The notes below the pieces were generated by a model. The model was not told the DNA's origin and did no database searches. It saw only the letters and a program-made list of their open reading frames with translations. The position numbers were made by a program, and so were the translations under genes. Shown here piece after piece: positions 1 to 44,175 of a stretch of 64,000 nucleotides of DNA. This DNA comes from Fibrobacter sp. (lineage in GTDB: Bacteria; Fibrobacterota; Fibrobacteria; Fibrobacterales; Fibrobacteraceae), in the NCBI GenBank assembly GCA_024398835.1, contig JAKSIK010000010.1:1-64000 (forward strand). The letters are read 5' to 3'. Position 1 is the first letter of the stretch. Every line of letters starts with the position of its first letter.

Positions 1-432
1 AAATCTATGTTTCGTTCCTGTTTCAAAAAAACTTCTTTATCAAAATTCCACTTGAACATAAAATATACACTATGTTTTACATAATGTCAATACATTTTAT
101 CAAAACAACCGGCATATCATGGGATTTTTGCAATATGTCTCGATTATTTAAATTGAAAAGACGAAACAAAGCCATATTCTACTCCTTCCCTGTAGACAAG
201 CCGATAACGACAGGGCATTTTTTGTTTTTCACATTAGGAATCTTTTTTCCTGCGGACCAAATATAAACTAGCGAAATGTCAAAACATGACATTTTGAACA
301 TTTTTTGCGAATTGCGCTTCTTGAAGAACAATTTTCCTGCGAAAAAAGTTATATTCCTTAGGTAAAACAACTCAAAAAGGATTTTTTATCGAGTAACGCA
401 CATTGACATATTGAGAGCTTTGCTCTTGGCTT
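1..432. other. AT-rich stretch without a convincing gene
   Basis: No reading frame here has a plausible start, ribosome site and protein-like composition. Two 63-64-codon frames (72-266 plus and 179-370 minus) overlap each other and read as low-complexity, so I leave them out. The stretch holds a perfect operator-like dyad at 274-294 and a small hairpin (AGAGC-TTT-GCTCT, 414-426) just before the structured element at 433. It is clearly more AT-rich than the housekeeping part of the window. Confidence 0.6.
274..294. promoter_or_regulatory. Perfect 8-bp dyad, operator-like
   Basis: AAATGTCA at 274-281 and TGACATTT at 287-294 are perfect inverted repeats separated by five bases. No T-run follows in a terminator arrangement. 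Size and symmetry fit a dimeric repressor site, but no gene starts directly downstream and no regulator is encoded nearby, so the role is an inference. Confidence 0.3.
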
Positions 433-625
433 TCATTCAAAATCGGCAAAATTTTGTATTCACGGAAGACTAAGCGGCATTGACTCACGCCCTATGGCGT
501 GGGTTTCTGCATTTATTCCGTGATGGTTTTGCCGAACCTTGAATGAGTAGATTGCATTAACTCCACGCTTTTTTTGTGGAGATTCTACAACCGCCAGGAG
601 CGAACGACACGTATTGTCGCTCGCC
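433..625 (+). ncRNA. Candidate structured RNA with nested hairpins
   Basis: The stretch can fold into a long nested stem. Bases 433-440 pair with 539-546 (8 bp), 443-451 with 527-535 (9 bp), 461-467 with 516-522 (7 bp), and 483-491 with 496-504 (9 bp with one G-U, loop CTAT). Two more hairpins follow: CTCCAC/GTGGAG at 561-566/576-581, and GAGCGA/TCGCTC at 598-603/617-622. This looks like a structured RNA rather than coding sequence. It lies 55 bases before a 35-residue zinc-ribbon ORF. I do not recognise a known family; an OMEGA/HEARO-type or IS200/IS605-end origin is possible but not shown. Strand is assumed from the downstream gene; the DNA dyads fold on either strand. Confidence 0.4.
605..619. 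repeat. CGACA-N5-TGTCG dyad, copy 1
   Basis: CGACA and TGTCG are separated by CGTAT. The site lies inside the last hairpin of the structured element. Related copies at 2367-2381 and 3575-3589 share the arms but have a CTAAT centre. Confidence 0.5.
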
Positions 626-680
626 CTTCTTATATTGGATAAGATCGGCAAAATCAACGGATAAATGCGAGGAACTATAT

Positions 681-788
681 ATGAGTTACTATTGCAAAAA
701 ATGCGGACAGAAATTTGACGGCCCGAATGCCATGTGGACGCTCGTCCATATGACATGCCCTAAAGGTGGCAGGTGCGAACCGTTTTAA
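681..788 (+). CDS. 35-residue zinc-ribbon-like peptide
   Basis: A 35-codon gene begins at the ATG at 681, seven bases after a GAGG ribosome-binding sequence. The peptide has a CxxC pair near the N-terminus (YYCKKCGQKF) and two later cysteines (MTCPKGGRC), so it could bind one zinc ion as a small ribbon. An in-frame ATG at 576 exists, but it would run translation through the hairpins of the upstream element, so I reject it. I recognise no characterised family. The position right after a possible structured RNA, at the head of an AT-rich segment, suggests accessory DNA. A decayed fragment of a larger zinc-finger protein is the alternative. Confidence 0.45.
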   Translation: MSYYCKKCGQKFDGPNAMWTLVHMTCPKGGRCEPF

Positions 789-851
789 TGGTTTTGCAAG
801 GATAGAAACCATAGGACTTTATAACTAACAACTAACAAAAGAGGTAAAAAA

Positions 852-1760
852 ATGGCAGAAGAAAATATTGGGAATAAAGAAAATCTTAAATTCTTGAAGG
901 AAGCCGAGATAAAGGTTAAAGATTCTGTTCTGAAGACAGCTTCTGATGTAAGGGAAGCTTTTAAAATCGATTTTAAGAAATATAGTACCCCTGAAATAGC
1001 AGATAATATTGCAAATGTTTTAGCGCCACAGACAGGGATGGTGCGAATAGTTAAATGGGGTGGAGTATTTATTGTCTTAGGAATAATTACTGATGTGATT
1101 CTTTGTAACGTTTCAAATCAGCAAGCTTTTGTTACAATTTTGGCCGCAATATTTGTTTTCTTCATGGTGACATTTTCAGGTTTGCTATTTGGAACCAATT
1201 CGTTCTTTAAATTGATGAATAGATCTATTCAGGGAATATTAGATTTCTCAAATGATACAATCCATCAAATCATAGAAGATATTCAGCATTTTTTTGAGAC
1301 TTTAAAATTGGCGGTAGATGGATGTCGAATAAAATTGCCTGGGGGTCATGAAATTGTCAGTGGAGTTTTAATAGAAATTGTGAATCCTGCGGCAAAAACC
1401 TGTTTTGAAAATAAACTTCCTTTTAAAGTAGTTGGCAAACTTTTTTTTAAGGTGTATTTGATTGCTATAAAGGGTCTTTTAAAAATTTCGTCTGTTTTCT
1501 TTGCAAAAATTGATAAGCAGATTGATAAAATGGTCAATGATCAATTGGCGAAAGTAAAAAATGTTGCTAAAAGCCCGCTTGATGTGGTGGAAAATACCAT
1601 CGGTGTTTGGAAACCCAAAATTATTGATGGTACGAATACATATATTGGTAAAGCGAAAAATTATATTCATAGAACGTTTTTCCTTGCCTCTTTGCCAATG
1701 CTCTTTTTTGCAATTACATTCATTGTGGCTACGATTACATTGGTGTATTTTTCTTTATAG
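852..1760 (+). CDS. Orphan three-TM membrane protein
   Basis: The protein has 302 residues and the start has a good AGAGG site nine bases upstream. Residues about 1-65 are charged and soluble. Two closely spaced hydrophobic segments follow (about 72-90 and 95-117), then a long amphipathic helical region rich in lysine and phenylalanine (about 120-270), and a last transmembrane segment at 280-302. No catalytic motif, signal peptide or known domain is visible. The gene is markedly more AT-rich than the housekeeping genes, suggesting horizontal acquisition. The architecture resembles membrane-associated or pore-type effectors in accessory loci, but no function can be assigned. Confidence 0.7.
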   Translation: MAEENIGNKENLKFLKEAEIKVKDSVLKTASDVREAFKIDFKKYSTPEIADNIANVLAPQTGMVRIVKWGGVFIVLGIITDVILCNVSNQQAFVTILAAIFVFFMVTFSGLLFGTNSFFKLMNRSIQGILDFSNDTIHQIIEDIQHFFETLKLAVDGCRIKLPGGHEIVSGVLIEIVNPAAKTCFENKLPFKVVGKLFFKVYLIAIKGLLKISSVFFAKIDKQIDKMVNDQLAKVKNVAKSPLDVVENTIGVWKPKIIDGTNTYIGKAKNYIHRTFFLASLPMLFFAITFIVATITLVYFSL

Positions 1761-1847
1761 GAATCATGAATCTTATAACGTATCTGTAATTTATGTTCTT
1801 TAAAAAATAAATTCACATCATTTCCTTTTTACCGCAACCATCCTTAC

Positions 1848-2448
1848 ATGCTTCCGTTTGTGGGGGCGAACTACATTTCGCCAAGGCACAAAAAGGTGTT
1901 GCTTGTCGGTGAAAGTCACTACATGCCGATGGGCTCTATAGTCCATCACGATGCAGATGCATGGTACAATGGGGTCCCAGCGCTCAATTCTGAGGAGCAG
2001 GGCTATTGCAACACTAGCGGGACGCGCGAATACAAAAGCGGACAGTTCGGCAAGGAAATTGAGCGTTGTCTTAATTTGTCCGTCAAATGGCAATGCATGG
2101 GAAGAGGTTGCGTCCATCAACTATTTCTTGCGGCCTGCTGATTACACGGAGAACATAACCGACTTGTGGAATAAATCCTCAACACAGGCGAAAGAGATGG
2201 ATTGCAAATTTTCACTCAAGAACTTCCTTGACGTGACTGAAGCCTTGACGCCGGACTTAATCATCTTTTTGAGTCATTTCGTGTGTGTGCATGCCGAAGG
2301 CGATTTTCCAAAATTCTTCCCGAAGAAAGAACTTTGGGACTGGACATTTTGTCCGTTGACATCGTGCGACACTAATTGTCGTGCATTGAAATTACATTCT
2401 ATAAGACAAGTAATGAATTCCTTTCAGCAAGGGGCTAAATATGAATGA
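1848..2448 (+). pseudogene. Frameshifted UDG-superfamily-like gene
   Basis: The first part (1848 to about 2090) encodes a protein with the core motif VLLVGESHY, closely matching VLGESHYGP of the intact paralogue at 2700. Homology then continues in another frame from about 2095 (residues WEEVASINYFLRP, matching the IAFYNFFQ region of the paralogue). The second frame has the LTPDLIIFLSHF strand, matching LKPNLIVGWGW, but ends without the C-terminal HHPS motif. The tail from about 2365 is translated from a repeated dyad (CGACACTAATTGTCG). The gene is therefore broken by a frameshift and truncated at the repeat. Programmed frameshifting is unlikely because the 3' end is also missing. Confidence 0.6.
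2367..2385 (+). repeat. Dyad-containing 19-bp direct repeat, copy 2
   Basis: CGACACTAATTGTCGTGCA occurs here and identically at 3575-3593. The first 15 bases are an inverted repeat (CGACA/TGTCG, 5-base spacer). This copy lies exactly where homology of the broken UDG-like gene to its paralogue stops. Confidence 0.65.
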
Positions 2449-2662
2449 CGAAAAGAAAGAAACCTACGAACTCATCGAGGTGGCCAAGACGGCGGCAAAC
2501 AGCACCGAGGTGAAAATTATCGGCGGGACGACTGTGACCGGGGCAACCATCGGTACGCTTATATGCCCTGGGGTGGGCACAGGGATCGGCGCCGCCATCG
2601 GAGGCATCTGCGGAAGTGTCGCGACTCTCGTCAACTGCATAAAGAAAAAGAAGCAAAAATAA
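2441..2662 (+). CDS. Small glycine-zipper membrane peptide
   Basis: The peptide has 73 residues. A polar, acidic N-terminus of about 29 residues ends in IIGG. A strongly hydrophobic glycine-rich stretch follows, with GxxxG-type spacing and two cysteines (residues about 31-66: GATIG, GVGTGIGAAIGG, CGSVATL), and then a lysine-rich tail (KKKKQK). Glycine zippers of this type occur in membrane-inserting peptides, including some toxins and class II bacteriocins. The IIGG at residues 26-29 resembles a double-glycine leader end, but no peptidase-transporter gene is nearby. It lies between the broken and the intact UDG-like genes, 37 bases before the latter. Function unknown. Confidence 0.55.
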   Translation: MNDEKKETYELIEVAKTAANSTEVKIIGGTTVTGATIGTLICPGVGTGIGAAIGGICGSVATLVNCIKKKKQK

Positions 2663-2699
2663 GTAAAACAGACTATATTCAATAAAAGGAGACTCGCCA

Positions 2700-3356
2700 A
2701 TGTCCTCAATTTTCTCCTCCCTCTTTTCCTCATCGCAGTTCATCAACTTCTACCCCTATGTCGGTAAAAGTTATGCTGCGTGCCCGTTCAAGATTCTCGT
2801 GCTGGGTGAATCGCATTATGGCCCACAATCAAAAAACTCATACCACGAATGGACGCAAGATGTAGTAGAAAATGATTTCCTCAAAAATCTTGACAATGGT
2901 GCGACTCTTCCCGACTGGGTACACTGCCACCGCAATACTGCGAACGTTTTGGCGGCCAATCGTGATTCCAATCCTCACGAAGTTTACGACAAGATTGCCT
3001 TCTATAACTTTTTCCAGAAGAGCGTAGGAGAAGGCGATCACGCAGACAAACGCTACCTAACAGACGAATTGAAGGCAATTTCAGCAAACGCTCTTCGCGA
3101 GGTGATGCAAATTCTGAAACCGAATTTGATTGTCGGCTGGGGCTGGGACAACTTGGAATGGAAATACCTACCAGCGCCACGCCATCAAATCGACATAAAT
3201 AGGGACTGCGCTGGAATTCATCTTCATTTGTTCACATTAGATGGTTTTCCTCGAATTCCCATCTGGTGCATGCATCATCCGTCAATGGGGATAAATATTA
3301 ATGCACATCGAGAATGTTTTGCAAAAATCAAAGACTTCCTGAATATCAGTTTCTGA
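2700..3356 (+). CDS. UDG-superfamily-like protein
   Basis: The protein has 218 residues. The segment ILVLGESHYGP (about residues 31-41) resembles the N-terminal catalytic-loop motif of uracil-DNA-glycosylase-fold proteins. LKPNLIVGWGW (about 139-149) matches the central strand. CMHHPSMG (about 191-198) matches the C-terminal HPS loop. The usual activity of that superfamily is removal of uracil from DNA, but the GESHY variant replaces the classic water-activating residues, so activity cannot be assumed. The gene is preceded by AAGGAG at 2687-2692. It follows the glycine-zipper gene and is a paralogue of the broken gene at 1848. Membership in the fold is an inference from motifs. Confidence 0.6.
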   Translation: MSSIFSSLFSSSQFINFYPYVGKSYAACPFKILVLGESHYGPQSKNSYHEWTQDVVENDFLKNLDNGATLPDWVHCHRNTANVLAANRDSNPHEVYDKIAFYNFFQKSVGEGDHADKRYLTDELKAISANALREVMQILKPNLIVGWGWDNLEWKYLPAPRHQIDINRDCAGIHLHLFTLDGFPRIPIWCMHHPSMGININAHRECFAKIKDFLNISF

Positions 3357-3361
3357 TTCGC

Positions 3362-3481
3362 GGCAATCAGCAATCTCTTGTATTCCGGCACCATTTCTTC
3401 GGGAACGACGATGATGCTGTAGCCGTTGGAAATCAGGATGTGGTTGGCAAATAGGGTCGCCGTTGTGTGAAACAAAATGTT
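3362..3481 (-). pseudogene. Fic-domain C-terminal remnant
   Basis: On the minus strand about 40 codons read as the helix after the Fic motif (TLFANHILISNGYSIIVVPE, then MVPEYKRLLIA). In intact Fic proteins (AMP transferases acting on target proteins) this segment follows the HPFxxGNGR catalytic loop. Here the loop is missing: the sequence before it reads FHTTA and opens into unrelated codons. Homology ends about five bases from the stop of the UDG-like gene. A strong GGAGG with an ATG at 3536, in another frame, may be a leftover start. It is a decayed fragment. Confidence 0.45.
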
Positions 3482-3574
3482 GTCAATTGCGGCAAAATGT
3501 TTCACATTTTAAATGCGGATAGCTTGTTTTCACCATTTTCCTCCATTGAGTTGGTACCTTTCTTCTACACTGTA

Positions 3575-3593
3575 CGACACTAATTGTCGTGCA
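3575..3593 (+). repeat. Dyad-containing 19-bp direct repeat, copy 3
   Basis: Identical over 19 bases to 2367-2385. Together the two copies bracket about 1.2 kb holding the glycine-zipper gene, the intact UDG-like gene and the Fic remnant. The surrounding bases differ between copies. Confidence 0.65.
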
Positions 3594-3657
3594 CTAAATC
3601 TAAATTAAAGTATGTTCAAACGAACAACTTAACCTGAACTGGATAAGGCAGGCGCAG

Positions 3658-4236
3658 ATGCTTTCGGACAATCAAGGTCTTCTGTTTGACGACCGGGACG
3701 GAGAAGTCTACGGCACGGTGCAGATTGGCGGTCAGGAATGGATGGCGGAAAATCTTCGCTTTCGGTGTATGGAAAGCGCTCCATACGATAGTGATGAATC
3801 TCTAGTGCCTATGTATGGCTGTCTTTATTCCTGGACAGCCATTGCTGAGGCGATTCCCTCTGGGTGGCATTTGCCGTCGCTTCTGGAGTGGGAGGAACTA
3901 CTGTGGAGCGCGGGTGCCTTCGAATTGGAACGGACGGCGAAGATTGTCGAATACAAGCGCATTGCGCCTAGTCTAAAAACGTCCCGCTTTTGGCAGGTTG
4001 ATAAAGATTTTTCTACGACATCTGGAGACGATTTGCGTTTTTCCGTGCTTCCGGCAGGGATTTACCGTCGGGGTTTATTTTCAGAGTTCGGGAAAAGCTG
4101 CGAATTTTGGAGTGCTACTCGTTTCTATGACAAGGCTTGCACATTCAGCTTCCATAATTTTAGCAGTTCCGTGTATCGCTCTGTGTCGCCTATTGACGAT
4201 TCCACGGCTCTGTCCATCCGCTGCGTCCGAGATTAA
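3658..4236 (+). CDS. FISUMP-domain protein without signal peptide
   Basis: The protein has 192 residues. It matches the Fibrobacter succinogenes major paralogous domain: DRDGEVYGTVQIGGQEWMAE near the N-terminus, then a WHLPS segment with EWEELL, a DDLRFSVLPAGIYR segment, FWSAT, and the closing SIRCVRD. The second window member at 60656 shows the same landmarks in the same order. Unlike that one, this copy has no signal peptide or lipobox, so it is either cytoplasmic or lacks its original N-terminus; the sequence before 3658 shows no extension with a signal. The domain is common in Fibrobacter surface proteins, with unknown biochemical role. Confidence 0.75.
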   Translation: MLSDNQGLLFDDRDGEVYGTVQIGGQEWMAENLRFRCMESAPYDSDESLVPMYGCLYSWTAIAEAIPSGWHLPSLLEWEELLWSAGAFELERTAKIVEYKRIAPSLKTSRFWQVDKDFSTTSGDDLRFSVLPAGIYRRGLFSEFGKSCEFWSATRFYDKACTFSFHNFSSSVYRSVSPIDDSTALSIRCVRD

Positions 4237-4261
4237 ACGCCGTGAGACGTTTTGGAATTTC

Positions 4262-5260
4262 TTACTTCACGGCTTTGCGGAATGCTTTTGCGACTGCGTC
4301 CGGGTTGTCGCTCTTGAGCCAGCTTAGAGTTTCCGTGCCGCGGTAACTCCAGGCGAAGATGTTCTCAATGCCTGCAGCGCGACTTTCAGCAACGGCAATG
4401 GCGAGGTCGTTTTCGCGGCCCGCCTCAATCTGGTAGGCCTTGACCCACATCTGCACGGCCTTGTCGTATTTTGTGGCTACATCTACAAGACGACGTGCCG
4501 TTTCAGCGTACTTCTCCCGAACCCATTCCTCGGTGGCGCCTTTTTCCCAATAAGGGTCGCTGGCAATTTCATCTACGCTGTCGAGGCAGGCTACACGGCT
4601 CCAGTCGTCAAGGCCTGCGGGGAACCAGGGCGGCAGCATGCACACGCAGTTCCGTTTCCCGCGGGCGTGCACATCTTCCGTCATCTCTTTCAAGAAGTCG
4701 ATGAGGCTATCTTCCCGGAATAGCTTCACATCCCGAGCCTCGTCTGGCGTCATTTTGTCAAAGGTGGCGGCAGGCATTTCGTAGCCGAAGCGGGCCTTGA
4801 ATGCGGCTTGACATTTTTCGCAGCGGCAGCTCCAGTTGTCGAGTCCGCCCTTCTCGAAATAAAAATGGGGCTCGTCCCAGAAAATGGTGTCTACCTTTGT
4901 GCAGCAAACGGTTTCTATCCAGCGGTGCATATAGGCCCGGAATTCTGGATGGTTGGGGCAGGCAGCCACTTTGGGTTTCCCGTCCAACCCAATCTGGCAA
5001 AGATCGTGATTTCTGGCGGTGAGTTCCGAGTAGGCTTCTCCGCCGAACACGCGGCCAACGCCCCAGGGGTTCACGTAGACTTTCAAACCCATGGCGGCAG
5101 AACCATCCACAATCTCCTTCATGGAGTCAAAATAATACTGCAGGTCCTCTTCACTCCAGGTGTGGAGAACACCGTTAAAACCAGCAGCTTTGATGTCTGC
5201 CATGTCGCTCAGTGCATGCTTTGGAGTGCGGACGCCAAAATAACTAACACCGGCAATCAT
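4262..5260 (-). CDS. TIM-barrel, glycoside-hydrolase-like protein
   Basis: The protein has 332 residues. I chose the ATG at 5260 (MIAGVSYFGVRTPK); upstream codons overlap the preceding gene. Repeating strand-helix units are visible: AGFNGVLHTW, GLKVYVNPWG, KVDTIFWDEPHF, NCVCMLPPW, AVQMWVKAYQ and GIENIFAWSYRG. This pattern is typical of a (beta/alpha)8 barrel. The acidic pair in FWDEPHF lies at a strand end where glycosidases often place catalytic residues. A cysteine cluster CRCEKC (about 167-172) may bind metal. No signal peptide is present, so it acts in the cytoplasm. It lies 5 bases after the gene at 5266 and is probably co-transcribed. Substrate unknown. Confidence 0.65.
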   Translation of the reverse strand: MIAGVSYFGVRTPKHALSDMADIKAAGFNGVLHTWSEEDLQYYFDSMKEIVDGSAAMGLKVYVNPWGVGRVFGGEAYSELTARNHDLCQIGLDGKPKVAACPNHPEFRAYMHRWIETVCCTKVDTIFWDEPHFYFEKGGLDNWSCRCEKCQAAFKARFGYEMPAATFDKMTPDEARDVKLFREDSLIDFLKEMTEDVHARGKRNCVCMLPPWFPAGLDDWSRVACLDSVDEIASDPYWEKGATEEWVREKYAETARRLVDVATKYDKAVQMWVKAYQIEAGRENDLAIAVAESRAAGIENIFAWSYRGTETLSWLKSDNPDAVAKAFRKAVK

Positions 5261-5265
5261 AAAAC

Positions 5266-5691
5266 TTATATATCGGTATTGGCCCACTGCGGTGTGGGTG
5301 TACGGCGCATTACCTGGTCCAGAGTCTCGCGCCATTCGTCTTCGTCGAGAGGACGGCGAATCCAGTAAAGGCTGTTGTCGCTTTGTGGGAGAGGCATGCT
5401 GTCGGGCACGATTTCCACCACCCAGGATTCGGGAATGGCGTTGTGGAGCTTCTTCGTGAAGGCCATGTTCACGCCCTTGGGCCGGTCAGCGTGATCGAAG
5501 ATGATGAGGGCCGGAGATTCACCCTGAATGAGGGCGGATTCCAGAATGTTGGAAGCATCTTCGATGGAATTGCAGGTGTACATGGTGTTGTCTTCGGCCA
5601 TGTCGTTTTCCAGAAGCCAACGAAGAGTCCACTGACTCAACTTGTCGAGGCTTCCGGGGGAAGATGGCGCTATGAAGAAAATATGACCCAC
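5266..5691 (-). CDS. Hypothetical protein, degenerate receiver-like
   Basis: The protein has 141 residues. Alternating hydrophobic strands and helices (GHIFFIAPSSPGS, PALIIFDHADRPKG, ESWVVEIVPDSMP, then a C-terminal helix EDEWRETLDQVMRR) recall a flavodoxin- or receiver-like fold. The conserved phospho-acceptor and lysine pattern of true response regulators is not convincing. It is the first gene of a two-gene minus-strand unit with the TIM-barrel protein, separated by 5 bases. I do not recognise the family. Confidence 0.55.
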   Translation of the reverse strand: MGHIFFIAPSSPGSLDKLSQWTLRWLLENDMAEDNTMYTCNSIEDASNILESALIQGESPALIIFDHADRPKGVNMAFTKKLHNAIPESWVVEIVPDSMPLPQSDNSLYWIRRPLDEDEWRETLDQVMRRTPTPQWANTDI

Positions 5692-5751
5692 GGCTTAAAA
5701 ATAGGTTATTTGTGTTACTTTGTGGATAGATAAAAGGGCCTTTTTGAAATT

Positions 5752-5862
5752 TTATTTCCAGTCCCAAGCATTTGCCCGACTTATCAACAGGAAATCTTCA
5801 ATTTGTGCGGGCGGAGCTTCGTCGTTTTCCTCAATTTGCTCAAAAGCGATTTTTTTACTCAT
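5752..5862 (-). CDS. Possible 36-residue acidic peptide
   Basis: ATG at 5862 to TAA at 5752 encodes 36 residues. It begins MSKKIAFEQIEENDE and ends NAWDWK, with a very acidic centre. Composition looks protein-like, but there is no clear ribosome-binding site (upstream is TTTACAAATAAATTT). It could be a small antitoxin-like peptide, the tail of a lost gene, or chance. Confidence 0.25.
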   Translation of the reverse strand: MSKKIAFEQIEENDEAPPAQIEDFLLISRANAWDWK

Positions 5863-5933
5863 AAATTTATTTGTAAATCAAATCTCTGACGACTTCCCTC
5901 CTGAGGTAATTTTGAATTTTGAATCAATTTAGA

Positions 5934-5968
5934 GACGTCATTGCGAGCCCTTTAGGACGCGGCAATCT
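5934..5968. repeat. CGTCATTGCGAG-type dispersed repeat
   Basis: GACGTCATTGCGAG followed by GGCAATC about 16 bases later, with partly palindromic ends (ATTGC/GCAAT). A second copy with the same frame and a different centre is at 60600-60633. Confidence 0.6.
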
Positions 5969-6001
5969 ATTATGAATTGTGAATTTTGAATTGTGAATTG
6001 C
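5969..6001. repeat. TGAATT/TATGAATT low-complexity run
   Basis: Iterated TGAATTGTGAATTTTGAATT-like words. The same kind of run appears at 32329-32412, 32489-32510, 44190-44303 and 56632-56710, always between genes. Confidence 0.6.
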
Positions 6002-7084: not shown

Positions 7085-9018
7085 TAGGTAAAGCGAAAAT
7101 GAATTTGGGTGAACTCCTGGTTAGGCAGGGGGTCATCGATGAAGATCAGCTCGCATGGGCGATGGACGAACACAAGCGTACGGGCATGGCCGTGGCGAGA
7201 ATTCTCGTTAAGCTCGGCATGGTTTCCAAGGATACGCTGACCAGCATTCTGGGTGTGCAGATGCAGTCTACCACCAAGATGCGTATTGGCGAAATGCTTC
7301 TTGCCCAGGGTTACATTACAAAGGAACAATTGGATGAGGCTCTGGAGAACCAGAAGGCCACAGGAAAGCGGCTGGGCCGCACACTGGTGGATTTGGGATT
7401 CATGCCGGAAGAGCGCCTCATCGAGATCCTCTCCCGCCAGTATGAAGTTCCCTATGTGAAGTTGGAAAATTTTGCCATTGATTCAGATGCCTACACCTAC
7501 ATTCCCGAAGACATGTGCAAAACCTATAAGGTAGTGCCGCTGTACATCTCCAAGACGGAAGATGAACGCCATGTGACCCGCTCTGCTTTGACTATTGCCA
7601 TGACGGATCCCACCAACATGCGTGTGATTCAGATTGTGAAGTTCAAGGTGAAGATGGAAGTGGATGTGGTCATGGCCGCCGAAGCCGACGTGATGAAGGC
7701 TATTGAGCGTATTTTTGCTGGCCACGGTCCTGCTGAAGAATCCCTTGCTGAATTGATTGGCGAGAATAAGGATGGGGAAGAACTGGAAACTGTGGAACGG
7801 GGGCAGGGTGGCAGTGCCGATGAACCGGAACTGACCGACGAAGAAGGCCGCGCGGTGGTGAAAATCGTGACGACCCTTATTCATGAAGCCATTGCACGCC
7901 ACGCATCTGATATTCACCTGGAACCTCAGGAAACCTTCCTGAAGCTCCGCTACCGTATTGATGGTGACCTCCAGGTCCAGTCTCCTATTCCGGCCCGTTT
8001 GATGCCGCAGATTCTTTCCCGTATCAAACTCCTTTCCAAGATGGATATTGCTGAAAAGCGTAGACCTTTGGATGGTCGTTTCACGGTGCGTTACAAGGGT
8101 TCGGAAGTTGACCTTCGTGTGTCTTCCTTCCCAATATCTCTCCGTAAGCGCGGTGTTTGCGAAAAGATTGTTATGCGTATTTTGGACCCGAACTCGGGTC
8201 AGTTCCCGCTGAAGGACATGGGCTTTGACCCTCGCGTGTTTAAGCAGTTTCTTGATGCAATTAACTTGCCCAATGGCATTATTCTGGTTACCGGTCCTAC
8301 GGGTTCCGGTAAATCTACGACCCTCTACGCTTCGATTCGTGAAATTCTGGATAGTACGATTAATATTTCTACCATGGAAGACCCTGTGGAATTGAATATC
8401 GACGGTGTCAACCAAGGTCAAATCAACAATGCGGCAGGCTTCACCTTCGCCGCAGGCATTCGCGCCTTGCTTCGTCAAGACCCGGATGTGATTATGATCG
8501 GTGAAATGCGTGACCAGGAGACGTCGTCCATGGCTATTGAAGCTGCTCTGACGGGTCACTTGGTCTTCAGTACCCTCCATACTAACGATGCTTCCGGTTC
8601 TTTCCCCCGTCTGTTGGAAATGGGCCTGGAACCCTTCCTTGTGTCTACGGCTATCAAGGGCATCCTGGCTCAACGCTTGGTGCGCCGCATTTGCAAGTAC
8701 TGTAAGGAACCGGTGGAAATTTCCCAGTCTCTCCGCGATGAATTGCACCTCGCTCCCGATATGCAGTTCTACCATGGCAGGGGTTGCGAGAAGTGCGATG
8801 GCTCGGGTTATAAGGGCCGTTGCGGTATTTACGAATTCCTGGTGCCGAACGAATCTGTCCGTAACCTGGTAATCAAGCGTGCCTCCGGCGACGAAATCAA
8901 ACGTTGCGCCATGAAGGAATGCTCCATGATTACGTTACGTATGGATGGTATCCAGAAGGCTTTGGATGGCCTCACCACCTTGGAACAGGCTGTGGGCGCT
9001 TCTGCATCTGACGACTAA
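7081..9018 (+). CDS. GspE/PilB-type secretion or pilus ATPase
   Basis: This hexameric ATPase drives assembly of a type II secretion pseudopilus or a type IV pilus. The start at 7081 overlaps the thiL stop (ATGA); a second candidate at 7099 has AGGTAAAG upstream. The N-terminus holds two MshEN-like repeats (NLGELLVRQGVI and RIGEMLLAQGYIT). Then come the Walker A GPTGSGKST (about residue 405), the Walker B and Asp box VIMIGEMRDQET, the His box STLHTND, and a zinc-binding CKYC...CEKC set near the C-terminus. At 645 residues it is full length. No other pilus or secretion gene is adjacent, so pilB and gspE cannot be told apart. Confidence 0.9.
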   Translation: MIGKAKMNLGELLVRQGVIDEDQLAWAMDEHKRTGMAVARILVKLGMVSKDTLTSILGVQMQSTTKMRIGEMLLAQGYITKEQLDEALENQKATGKRLGRTLVDLGFMPEERLIEILSRQYEVPYVKLENFAIDSDAYTYIPEDMCKTYKVVPLYISKTEDERHVTRSALTIAMTDPTNMRVIQIVKFKVKMEVDVVMAAEADVMKAIERIFAGHGPAEESLAELIGENKDGEELETVERGQGGSADEPELTDEEGRAVVKIVTTLIHEAIARHASDIHLEPQETFLKLRYRIDGDLQVQSPIPARLMPQILSRIKLLSKMDIAEKRRPLDGRFTVRYKGSEVDLRVSSFPISLRKRGVCEKIVMRILDPNSGQFPLKDMGFDPRVFKQFLDAINLPNGIILVTGPTGSGKSTTLYASIREILDSTINISTMEDPVELNIDGVNQGQINNAAGFTFAAGIRALLRQDPDVIMIGEMRDQETSSMAIEAALTGHLVFSTLHTNDASGSFPRLLEMGLEPFLVSTAIKGILAQRLVRRICKYCKEPVEISQSLRDELHLAPDMQFYHGRGCEKCDGSGYKGRCGIYEFLVPNESVRNLVIKRASGDEIKRCAMKECSMITLRMDGIQKALDGLTTLEQAVGASASDD

Positions 9019-9024
9019 TCCCGT

Positions 9025-11484
9025 TTAGTTCCACATCGTTTTTATAACAGTTGTGTCATGAGCGAACTCCATCATGATGGAGCCGCTTGTTGCTGTGTTC
9101 AGGTAAGGAATCTGGAGGGAATCCAGACGGTTGATGACCGGTTTGTGGGGGTGGCGAAACCGGTTTTTGCGGCCGCTGGAGATGATGGCTAGCCTCGGAC
9201 GTACGGCTTCCAGAAATTTGCGGCTGCTGGATGTTTTGCTGCCGTGGTGCCCCAGTTTTAGAATTTCACTTTTGAGGGGGATGTCCGTTTTGAGAATCTC
9301 TTTTTCGCCGGCGGTAGTAAGGTCGCCAGTGAGGAGCGCTTTGTGTCCAAGTCCTTCCGCTTGCAAGGTGATGCTGCCGGTATTCACTTCGCCACAGGTG
9401 GCGTTAGGTCCGTCGTAAGGATGTAACGCCTTCAATTTGAAGTGCATTTCCGACCATAGAAAACTGCGGCCAACGTCCCGAATGGGAATTTTACGGTCTG
9501 CGGCTACGCTGAGCACATCTTGCCAATCCTCTTTATCTTCGGTGCGGGCGCATGCGCTTATCCAGAGTTCATGAACGGGGAAACTTTTGAGAATGCTTTC
9601 GGCGCCTCCGAAGTGGTCAGCATCCGGGTGGGTGATGATGAGAGCGTCCAGCGCGATGATTCCGCTGTAGTGCAGGAAGGGGATGATGATGTCCTTGCCG
9701 GAATCGGTGCGGCTGTTGTCGCCTGCGTCGATGAGGAAGTTTTTGCCCGAGGGAGTGGTAATGAGGAAGGAATCCCCTTGCCCTACATCGATGGCGGTAA
9801 GGCTCCAGCGCGGGCTCAGAATTTTCGTGTAGCTCTCGTAGCAGAAAATGCCTGCGAAGAGGGCGAAGCAGATGAGGCTGTAAGTGCGTGCGATGGAGTT
9901 CTTTCGCACCACGGGGAAGAGGATGAACAGGCTTCCCAGCAGGAGAAGAATGGCTGGTCCGAAGGGGCCTACGGTTAGGGATGCTTCGGCGGAATCGGAC
10001 AGAAACCGTGTGAGGAGAGAGGCGAGTCGGAGGAAAAATCCTGCGGCGTAGCAGAAGTGCTCCCGCAAAAAATCCAGGGGCGAGAGAAGCGCAAAAAGTC
10101 CTGCCTGCATGCCCATGGAAATGGCGGGAACCACAACGATGTTCCCTAGCCACGCGAAAGGTGACAATGTTTTGAAGTGATGGATGAGGAACGGTGCGGT
10201 TGCAAGGGTTGCGCAGAGGGTGACGTAGGTGGGATTGAAAATGAAATTTTCTAGAAACTTCCAGATTTTAGTTTGTTTGAAACCGAATTCCAACTTTTGC
10301 AGAGGGTTGTGGGAACCTCCAATGAGAATGCCTGCTGTGGCGGCTACGGAAAGTTGAAATCCGGGATTCCATAATTCGCTGGGATTTGGAATGAGAATGA
10401 AGAGTAGCGCCACACCAAGGCTGTTTAAGGTGTTGGCGGGGCGTTGTAGCAGGGCTCCGATTTGGGGAACTGTCCACATCAACACGGCTCTGCGGACGGC
10501 TGGAGATCCTCCCGTGACGGGAATGTAGATGAACAGCAAAATGATGGCCACAATTCGCACAATGCGATGGGGAAGCCGTGTGGCTTTCAGAAATATCATG
10601 AGCATTCCTGCCAAAAGCACCACATGAAATCCACTGATGGCTAACACATGCACTAGCCCGGACCGCTGGAAATCGCTGCGAAGCGCTTCGGGAATGCCGC
10701 TCTTGTCGCCGGCCAGTAATCCTAATAGCAGCCCCGTCTCCGCCGGGTCCAAGAAATCCTCAAATCGGGATTTTATCCATTTGCGGAAGGCGTAAAAGCT
10801 CCTTTCGGGAATCCAGCTGCCGGCGTGAGCATCCCAGTGCAGAAGCTTGCCGTAGGCGGCGAGACCTTGGCTCTGAAGCCAGCCCGCAGTATTGAAGGCC
10901 CCTGGCACCGTGGGCGGTGTCACGGGGTACCAGCTGGCGGTATAGCATATCTTGTCCCCAGGTTCGGGCAGATTTGGCAAATCCCGCTTTTCTGTAAGCC
11001 GGACCCGATAGGCCTCCGGCGTGGTCTTTGCTGCGAAACTGCGGCTGTCATTGAAACTGCTGTCTTTTGCGGAAAGGCCGTCGCGGGCTTGCGTTGAGCG
11101 GATGATGAACGCGGTTCCGTTGGCCCGAGGTAAAACGGACTCCACTGTGCCGCAGGCTTCTGTTGGCGGCGCGGACGAACTTTGTGCGGTGAGGCTTTCG
11201 CCAGCGTTGCCTAACCTGTCCCCATCCAACCCATATAAAAAGTGACTTCCGCAGCCCACTAGAATTGCAAACAAAATCGCGACTTGGTCGCTTTTCGGGA
11301 AAAAGTGGATGGTCAGTGCGATGGGGAGGAGTAGGGCCAGGGCGTAGTTAGGGAAATCAAGGCTTGCGTAGGTGGCCATGAGGGCGAGGGCGCTGAGGAG
11401 TGCCGGTTTTCCGGTGAGGGGCTGCAGCAATTCTCTTAAAGATTGCTGGAAGTTTGTCCATTTTCTTGTTTTGCAGGATTTCAT
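9025..11484 (-). CDS. comEC: ComEC/Rec2 DNA-uptake channel protein
   Basis: ComEC is the inner-membrane channel through which single-stranded DNA enters during natural transformation. The 819-residue protein has N-terminal TM segments, an OB-like region, the competence domain with many TM helices (starting about residue 250 with LLLGLLAGDKSGIPE and HVLAISGFHVVLLAG), and a C-terminal metallo-beta-lactamase domain with IDVGQGDSFL, LIDAGD, THPDADHFGG (about 615) and LKLGHHGSKTS. The catalytic HxDH set is intact. Its stop is 6 bases from the stop of the convergent ATPase gene. Together with a PilB-type ATPase this hints at competence, but no comEA or pilin gene is visible. Confidence 0.93.
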   Translation of the reverse strand: MKSCKTRKWTNFQQSLRELLQPLTGKPALLSALALMATYASLDFPNYALALLLPIALTIHFFPKSDQVAILFAILVGCGSHFLYGLDGDRLGNAGESLTAQSSSAPPTEACGTVESVLPRANGTAFIIRSTQARDGLSAKDSSFNDSRSFAAKTTPEAYRVRLTEKRDLPNLPEPGDKICYTASWYPVTPPTVPGAFNTAGWLQSQGLAAYGKLLHWDAHAGSWIPERSFYAFRKWIKSRFEDFLDPAETGLLLGLLAGDKSGIPEALRSDFQRSGLVHVLAISGFHVVLLAGMLMIFLKATRLPHRIVRIVAIILLFIYIPVTGGSPAVRRAVLMWTVPQIGALLQRPANTLNSLGVALLFILIPNPSELWNPGFQLSVAATAGILIGGSHNPLQKLEFGFKQTKIWKFLENFIFNPTYVTLCATLATAPFLIHHFKTLSPFAWLGNIVVVPAISMGMQAGLFALLSPLDFLREHFCYAAGFFLRLASLLTRFLSDSAEASLTVGPFGPAILLLLGSLFILFPVVRKNSIARTYSLICFALFAGIFCYESYTKILSPRWSLTAIDVGQGDSFLITTPSGKNFLIDAGDNSRTDSGKDIIIPFLHYSGIIALDALIITHPDADHFGGAESILKSFPVHELWISACARTEDKEDWQDVLSVAADRKIPIRDVGRSFLWSEMHFKLKALHPYDGPNATCGEVNTGSITLQAEGLGHKALLTGDLTTAGEKEILKTDIPLKSEILKLGHHGSKTSSSRKFLEAVRPRLAIISSGRKNRFRHPHKPVINRLDSLQIPYLNTATSGSIMMEFAHDTTVIKTMWN

Positions 11485-42118: not shown

Positions 42119-44175
<2,057 letters not shown>

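Follow-up and report, generated by a model that had tools for sequence, protein, structure and literature searches.

Results

Repeats and genes at the locus

The stretch of DNA analysed here (the window) comprises the first 64,000 nt of contig JAKSIK010000010.1 of a Fibrobacter sp. assembly (GCA_024398835.1), and towards its left end a palindromic sequence recurs among a row of open reading frames (Table 1). An initial annotation had reported two identical 19-bp repeats in direct orientation and a third, related dyad. An exact search confirmed the pair, the 19-mer CGACACTAATTGTCGTGCA being present in two same-strand copies at 2367-2385 and 3575-3593, and the related dyad CGACACGTATTGTCG was likewise found at 605-619. 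The window holds no further site for the 19-mer at up to three mismatches, and 100 shuffles gave 0. The core CGACA-N5-TGTCG occurs three times in the window, namely in the 605, 2367, and 3575 copies, against 0.02 expected. In the whole assembly of this genome (2.1 Mb, 45 contigs, 72% complete), a 20-mer search returned solely the two 19-mer copies, and the bare core was found 7 times in all. Promoter-type operators, as described below, number four in this incomplete genome, every one of them within one ~4-kb stretch of the island; with two mismatches allowed, two TGACA-N5-TGTCA sites outside the island were the only additions.

Table 1. Features of the island and its left neighbourhood. Positions are window coordinates; negative values lie on contig C22 (L135).
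Feature	Position	Strand	Description
HTH-WYL-WCX regulator gene	about -1508 to -489	-	C22 (L135); reads away from window
Regulator's own operator CGACACTTATTGTCG	near -419 to -405		C22, upstream of regulator
C22 (L135) end overlap	1..55 = L135 6474-6528		last 55 bases of C22 identical
Operator-promoter 1	605..636	+	palindrome CGACACGTATTGTCG 605-619, 11-nt spacer, TATATT 631-636; leads to zinc-ribbon-like small ORF
Zinc-ribbon-like ORF, 35 aa	681..788	+	MSYYCKKCGQKF...; first gene after operator 1
302-aa ORF	852..1760	+	hydrophobic stretches, no family; unit downstream of operator 1
'UDG-like a' copy	1806..2346	+	frameshifted, C-terminally truncated; homology lost 20 nt short of operator 2
Operator-promoter 2 (left 19-mer copy)	2367..2398	+	palindrome 2367-2381, 11-nt spacer, TACATT 2393-2398
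Glycine-zipper-like ORF, 73 aa	2441..2662	+	first gene after operator 2; weak, below Pfam cut-off
'UDG-like b' ORF, 218 aa	2700..3356	+	37% identity to longer proteins of other such islands
Operator-promoter 3 (right 19-mer copy)	3575..3606	+	palindrome 3575-3589, 11-nt spacer, TAAATT 3601-3606
Fib_succ_major (FISUMP) domain gene	3658..4236	+	last island gene; homologues in other islands

Between the two 19-mers, the initial annotation had placed a glycine-zipper gene, an intact UDG-like gene, and a Fic remnant. The first holds as an ORF, though a weak one by its profile score. The second is an intact ORF as well, but its identity as a UDG has no profile support, since 'UDG-like b' gave no Pfam, NCBIfam, or PADLOC match; we use 'UDG-like' here purely as a label for motif appearance. 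The predicted model of the window UDG-like protein had a mean pLDDT of 50 and was left out of the fold search. The Fic remnant could not be recovered, with no Pfam match and nothing similar to it among the island Fic proteins or in any fetched locus. To the left of the first 19-mer, the broken paralogue is real and frameshifted, and it lacks about 48 C-terminal residues; its homology had been said to end exactly at the repeat, whereas it stops 20 nt short of it. Small ORFs resembling the zinc-ribbon-like and the glycine-zipper-like ORF likewise follow an operator in the relatives' loci L049 and L056, respectively.

Other identities of the dyad were considered and rejected. A transcription terminator was discarded because the dyad has no following T-run, and an RNA element because Rfam gave no match to window 1-6000 at E ≤ 1 and the predicted start lies downstream of the dyad. 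The predicted folding of the left 19-mer copy is no better than that of shuffles. The dyad also does not match what we take to be the Fibrobacter LexA box.

Operator-promoter architecture across the family

Sites for the 19-mer at up to two mismatches are found in 20 of 111 family genomes, 19 of them in the genus of the window. Almost always, the sites in those genomes follow one order, i.e., the palindrome, 11 nt, a -10-like TANATT, and a gene start. This operator-promoter is present in 48 of 80 genus genomes. For an unbiased test of the spacing, every CGACA-N5-TGTCG with 26 nt of flank was gathered from two sets of 30 genomes, one with and one without the regulator (a WYL protein, described below). 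Among the site-sides listed for the WYL-positive set, which come from about a dozen genomes, TANNTT lay at offset 11 in 23 of 96; 17 of these 23 hexamers were TATATT, and any other offset had at most 4. In the WYL-negative genomes, the corresponding count at offset 11 was 2 of 79 site-sides. A reversed-pattern control was near zero among the 111 genomes.

The sites are also oriented with respect to genes. At 83 of 89 distinct sites in the fetched loci, an ORF on the same strand and no shorter than 60 aa begins within 150 nt, and on the opposite side the count is 26 of 66. Some palindromes are shared by divergent gene pairs, with a -10 on either side. When TANATT is set at -12 to -7, the palindrome occupies -38 to -24 with its centre at about -31, which places it on the -35 region. 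Hexamers at normal -35 spacing, read directly from the sequence logo, matched one or two of the six TTGACA positions. Because of the fixed 11-nt spacing, the same-strand orientation of the ORFs, and the divergent use, we regard the repeats as most likely operator-promoters ahead of genes and not recombination sites.

A WYL regulator linked to the operators

Islands with these promoters encode a protein of ~337 aa with Pfam WYL and WCX domains. In the genus, operator and regulator occur together in 46 genomes, the regulator only in 4, the operator only in 2 (G040 and G089), and neither in 28 (p = 4.6e-15, a value that ignores the kinship of the genomes and so overstates their independence). Physical linkage needs no such p-value: among the sites listed, 105 of 135 lie within 20 kb of a WYL gene, despite short draft contigs. 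Five g4 genomes have the pattern and no regulator homologue at E ≤ 1e-20; such absences are soft, many genomes being incomplete assemblies, with the exception of G045 (99% complete).

The regulator gene is itself preceded by the operator. Close orthologues numbered 17, of which 16 came from named Fibrobacter records and one was the window genome's own. In 16 of them, the window genome's included, the exact palindrome stands upstream of the gene, and the 17th differs by one substitution. Paralogous regulators (40-45% identity) have variant palindromes, with the exact core in 4 of 30 promoters. In the window genome, the regulator is encoded on contig C22; it is 49% identical to the query and has Pfam WYL and WCX domains. 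C22 and the window contig very likely join, because of a 55-base assembly overlap and the gene order in the closest relative. Joined in this way, the operator of the regulator and the three of the window, four in all, would fall within ~4 kb of one another. This WYL regulator gene thus sits inside a defence-like island and carries an inverted repeat in its promoter, as in BrxR and CapW. C22 also carries a CopG-type antitoxin ORF (-396 to -118) and radA. Genome G059 has three WYL paralogues with a cluster of operator-like palindromes near each (C3 185-189 kb, C1 119-128 kb, and C1 614-624 kb), and these apparently form separate local regulons in one genome.

A chance palindrome or a generic, functionless REP-like extragenic element would account for a repeat that is palindromic, intergenic, and folds like its shuffles in the left copy. 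We give this explanation practically no credence, since the genome has just four promoter-type copies, all in one island, the reversed pattern is nearly absent from the 111 genomes, and the spacing is strict. A REP-like dispersed repeat is ruled out by the copy number and the linkage to the regulator.

Sister sites and leader elements

TGACA-N5-TGTCA sites, 11 nt from TATATT, lie at G000:C12:111943-111974 and G000:C25:4327-4358 and are kept in G045; possibly, they are a second, sister operator of a paralogous regulator. The promoter of radA (L135, about 4915-4960; in G045, L129 reverse complement, about 7040) has TACGACACAAATTGTCAC about 12 nt before TATATT. This is a degenerate site on a DNA-repair gene that resembles the DriD box (see Discussion), and it is kept in G045, which has no such island.

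Past the -10, an inverted repeat lies in the leader upstream of the AAA+ gene in L037, L038, L039, L042-L046, and L051-L055, and one also precedes MTIKE/MAIK genes in L041, L048, and L051. The start codon is part of the stem, and the loop holds the ribosome-binding site. The stems (GCATAG...CTATGC, GCATGGT...ACCATGC, and GATAGTC...GACTATC) vary by group with complementarity kept. Since the pairs differ between groups yet remain complementary, they suggest translational control. A second conserved leader, CGGCAAAA..A.GGATAAATGCGAGGA, follows several promoters (window 637-681; L038, about 1520; L048 reverse complement, about 9180; L049 reverse complement, about 9660), and a reverse-complement-like copy of it, TTTATTCCGTGATGGTTTTGCCGA, is found at about window 513-536.

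Mosaicism of the island

The closest relative, G045, is about 95% identical on both flanks of the island, on the left over L135 1-4953 (up to radA) and on the right from window 4255 onward. Between these flanks, G045 has a FISUMP lipoprotein gene and a PD-(D/E)XK transposase-family gene, with no palindrome; the breakpoints are at radA and after the FISUMP gene, away from the repeats. The initial annotation had proposed comparing strains for presence or absence of the 1.2-kb segment between the 19-mers with one copy retained. In G045, unrelated DNA takes the place of the entire ~5.8-kb island together with the regulator, and no repeat is left. As G045 lacks the whole island between conserved flanks, the variable unit, as judged from this comparison, is the ~5.8-kb island including the regulator.

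In other relatives, the islands contain, in changing order, genes for AAA+ (IetA-like domain), GmrSD, PLD, PD-(D/E)XK (PDC-S26), Fic, PIN, and FISUMP proteins and for two UDG-like families. A role in defence would rest on these relatives' islands, as most unit genes of the window have no assigned function. In L044, a frameshift interrupts the AAA+ gene of the island (MQLHY...; reverse complement 7986-10350), whose product has 766 aa in relatives. Where L055 and L042 have a single operator, locus L054 has two, with an extra Fic and UDG-like unit between them, and the L054/L055 breakpoints fall inside the common ~40-bp promoter-operator. The gene directly upstream of the operator of the AAA+ gene varies widely between islands. 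Unit boundaries thus appear to coincide with operators, because units begin with promoters.

This coincidence is what the idea of a site-specific recombination site or integron-like cassette boundary, proposed in the initial annotation, can draw upon. Like integron attC sites and cassette arrays, the locus has a repeated dyad at the unit boundaries of a variable gene array, and both the additional unit of L054 and the variable neighbour of the AAA+ operator fit such a scheme. Unlike integron arrays, it has no integrase nearby and no attC core, and its repeat lies upstream of each gene with a promoter. A direct reading of 2360-2400 and 3567-3610 found no attC core GTTRRRY/RYYYAAC. Within the incomplete assembly, matches to the tyrosine recombinase domain (PF00589) were confined to contigs C18 and C19 and to window 43339-43839, with none in or beside the island. 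The fixed spacing to the -10 and to gene starts, the divergent use, and the WYL linkage also speak against a recombination site, as do the breakpoints in G045 and the loss of homology 20 nt before the repeat in the truncated gene. We therefore consider such a site very improbable and rejected a recombination site, an integron attC, and an Xer-type site on the promoter geometry, the missing attC core, and the lack of a nearby recombinase. Of the earlier cassette-boundary proposal, the abutment of units on operators stands and the recombination site does not. The domain at 43339-43839 (minus strand, 153 bits, 307-aa frame), about 40 kb away, is probably unrelated to the island.

Besides their regulatory role, the promoter-operators may double as short homology blocks through which ordinary homologous recombination swaps units. 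The L054/L055 breakpoints suit this, and in L045 two neighbouring operators are alike over more than 30 nt including the -10, which suggests a copied promoter block. Against this, a block of ~40 bp offers little length for homologous recombination, and islands are also replaced as a whole, with breakpoints lying outside. Exchange of units via promoter blocks is thus possible, though we lean somewhat against it.

Discussion

Known WYL regulators are of two kinds, the first repressing defence operons (BrxR and CapW) and the second activating DNA repair when triggered by single-stranded DNA (DriD and PafBC). The operator-promoters described here would most resemble those of the second kind. The predicted structure of a 50%-identical orthologue of the regulator has a wHTH, three helices, a WYL, and a WCX domain; the model is of moderate quality (pLDDT 72), and most of its 3HB part scores around 50 or lower. 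Its fold matches in the PDB were led by DriD (8tp8, E 5e-15), followed by PafBC (5e-12), CapW (4e-7), and BrxR (1e-6). Full-length identity to DriD is about 15%. Phmmer and a profile search of PDB sequences did not return DriD and gave PafC/PafB weakly, and a PDB sequence search with the own regulator alone gave one unrelated weak match. Judged from this predicted model, the relationship to DriD is one of fold and operator without detectable sequence homology; the regulator would work like DriD and is not called its orthologue.

On the DNA side, 16 of the 21 positions of the published DriD probe agree with the window copy at 3573. Compared with the DriD motif ATACGAC-N7-GTCGTAT, the core CGAC-N7-GTCG is identical and the outer bases agree in part. 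DriD of Caulobacter crescentus (PMC12340889, PDB 8TP8) has half-sites TACGAC/GTCGT with the same 7-nt gap, equivalent to CGACA-N5-TGTCG; its palindrome is centred on a poor -35, and an operator also lies upstream of the regulator gene. In DriD promoters, the operator is at a constant distance from the -10 (PMC12340889); aligning the printed promoters on the conserved G-14, we infer this distance to be 11 nt, a figure not stated in that paper. The shared wHTH-3HB-WYL-WCX fold is the top structural match of the predicted orthologue model. Therefore, two independent lines, the DNA site and the protein fold, indicate DriD. The differences are those of another phylum, the low identity, and the targets, which are didA, bapE, recJ, and dnaG for DriD and an accessory defence-like island here. 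PafBC, a WYL activator and the second-best fold match, has the same half-site and the same 11-nt spacing to the -10, the consensus of PafBC-dependent (RecA-NDp) mycobacterial promoters being tTGTCRgtg-8nt-TannnT (PMC5656591). PafBC differs in being a heterodimer, and the consensus published for it contains one half-site and no palindrome.

The same operator and regulator could also be read as a BrxR/CapW-type repressor that sits on the -35 and is released upon phage infection. Known defence-island regulators are WYL repressors, and BrxR and CapW are also among the fold matches. Acinetobacter BrxR, a repressor, binds a 25-bp pseudo-palindrome, with 10-bp half-sites 5 nt apart, over the -35 (PMC9122589), and E. 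fergusonii BrxR acts as a repressor at 11-bp inverted repeats separated by 5 bp. The R-boxes of BREX islands (PMC9122589, PMC9122601) share with our locus a WYL regulator of a mosaic defence island and an inverted repeat with a 5-nt spacer over the promoter, a likeness of geometry. BrxR differs in being a repressor, in its weaker fold match, and in having two R-boxes in the E. fergusonii island, where here the operator precedes several separate units. CapW represses CBASS from a site that overlaps the -10 (PMC9122588); it is likewise a WYL regulator of a defence operon that binds a ~20-bp palindrome, and it differs in the position of its site, in being a repressor, and in serving a single operon. 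Against repression stand the invariant -10 spacing over unrelated genes, which repressors do not need, the much better fold matches of DriD and PafBC than of BrxR (5e-15 and 5e-12 vs 1e-6), and an operator sequence and spacing equal to those of DriD and PafBC promoters. We hold the repressor reading to be unlikely. Geometry by itself does not fix the sign of regulation, because BrxR represses from a comparable site.

The sequences establish the palindromes, their fixed spacing and orientation, their tendency to occur together with the regulator, the operator ahead of the regulator gene itself, the mosaicism, and the presence or absence of the whole island. As the quite likely explanation, we propose a DriD-like regulator that acts at the operator-promoters of a mosaic defence-like island, with activation favoured. 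Most likely, a homodimeric wHTH-3HB-WYL-WCX protein, encoded just left of the window, would bind (R)CGACA-NTAAT-TGTCG(Y), which is centred on the -35 region and followed after 11 bp by a TATATT-like -10, and would switch its own gene and the island units on or off jointly. The homodimer and its binding to the palindrome are what we infer for this particular regulator. The geometry and the structural likeness to DriD favour an activator that single-stranded DNA would release, as in the damage responses of Caulobacter DriD and mycobacterial PafBC, so that the island would be induced by DNA damage or by an attacking phage. Given the operator model, activation is the likely sign by analogy, because the spacing does not vary and those relatives whose sites match are activators; a single-stranded DNA trigger and a defence role of the genes would follow from similar analogies.

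A fuller version is that the island has a DriD/PafBC-like alarm for single-stranded DNA, in which one local WYL activator would govern a mosaic anti-phage regulon instead of DNA repair, turning on many exchangeable defence units, each with its own promoter, by way of a common -35-centred operator, and arriving units would join by bringing or acquiring the ~32-bp operator-promoter. We put this forward tentatively, at slightly less than an even chance. In a non-exhaustive literature search, no report of a regulon of this kind in Fibrobacter came up. The combination of repair-type operator geometry and DriD-like fold on a defence-like island would join the two known roles of WYL regulators, and this reading yields a testable prediction on how phage attack is sensed. 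The pattern also suggests a way for a mosaic island to hold new units under common control. Furthermore, the ~32-bp signature CGACA-N5-TGTCG-N11-TANNTT lets co-regulated, still unnamed defence genes in Fibrobacter be found.
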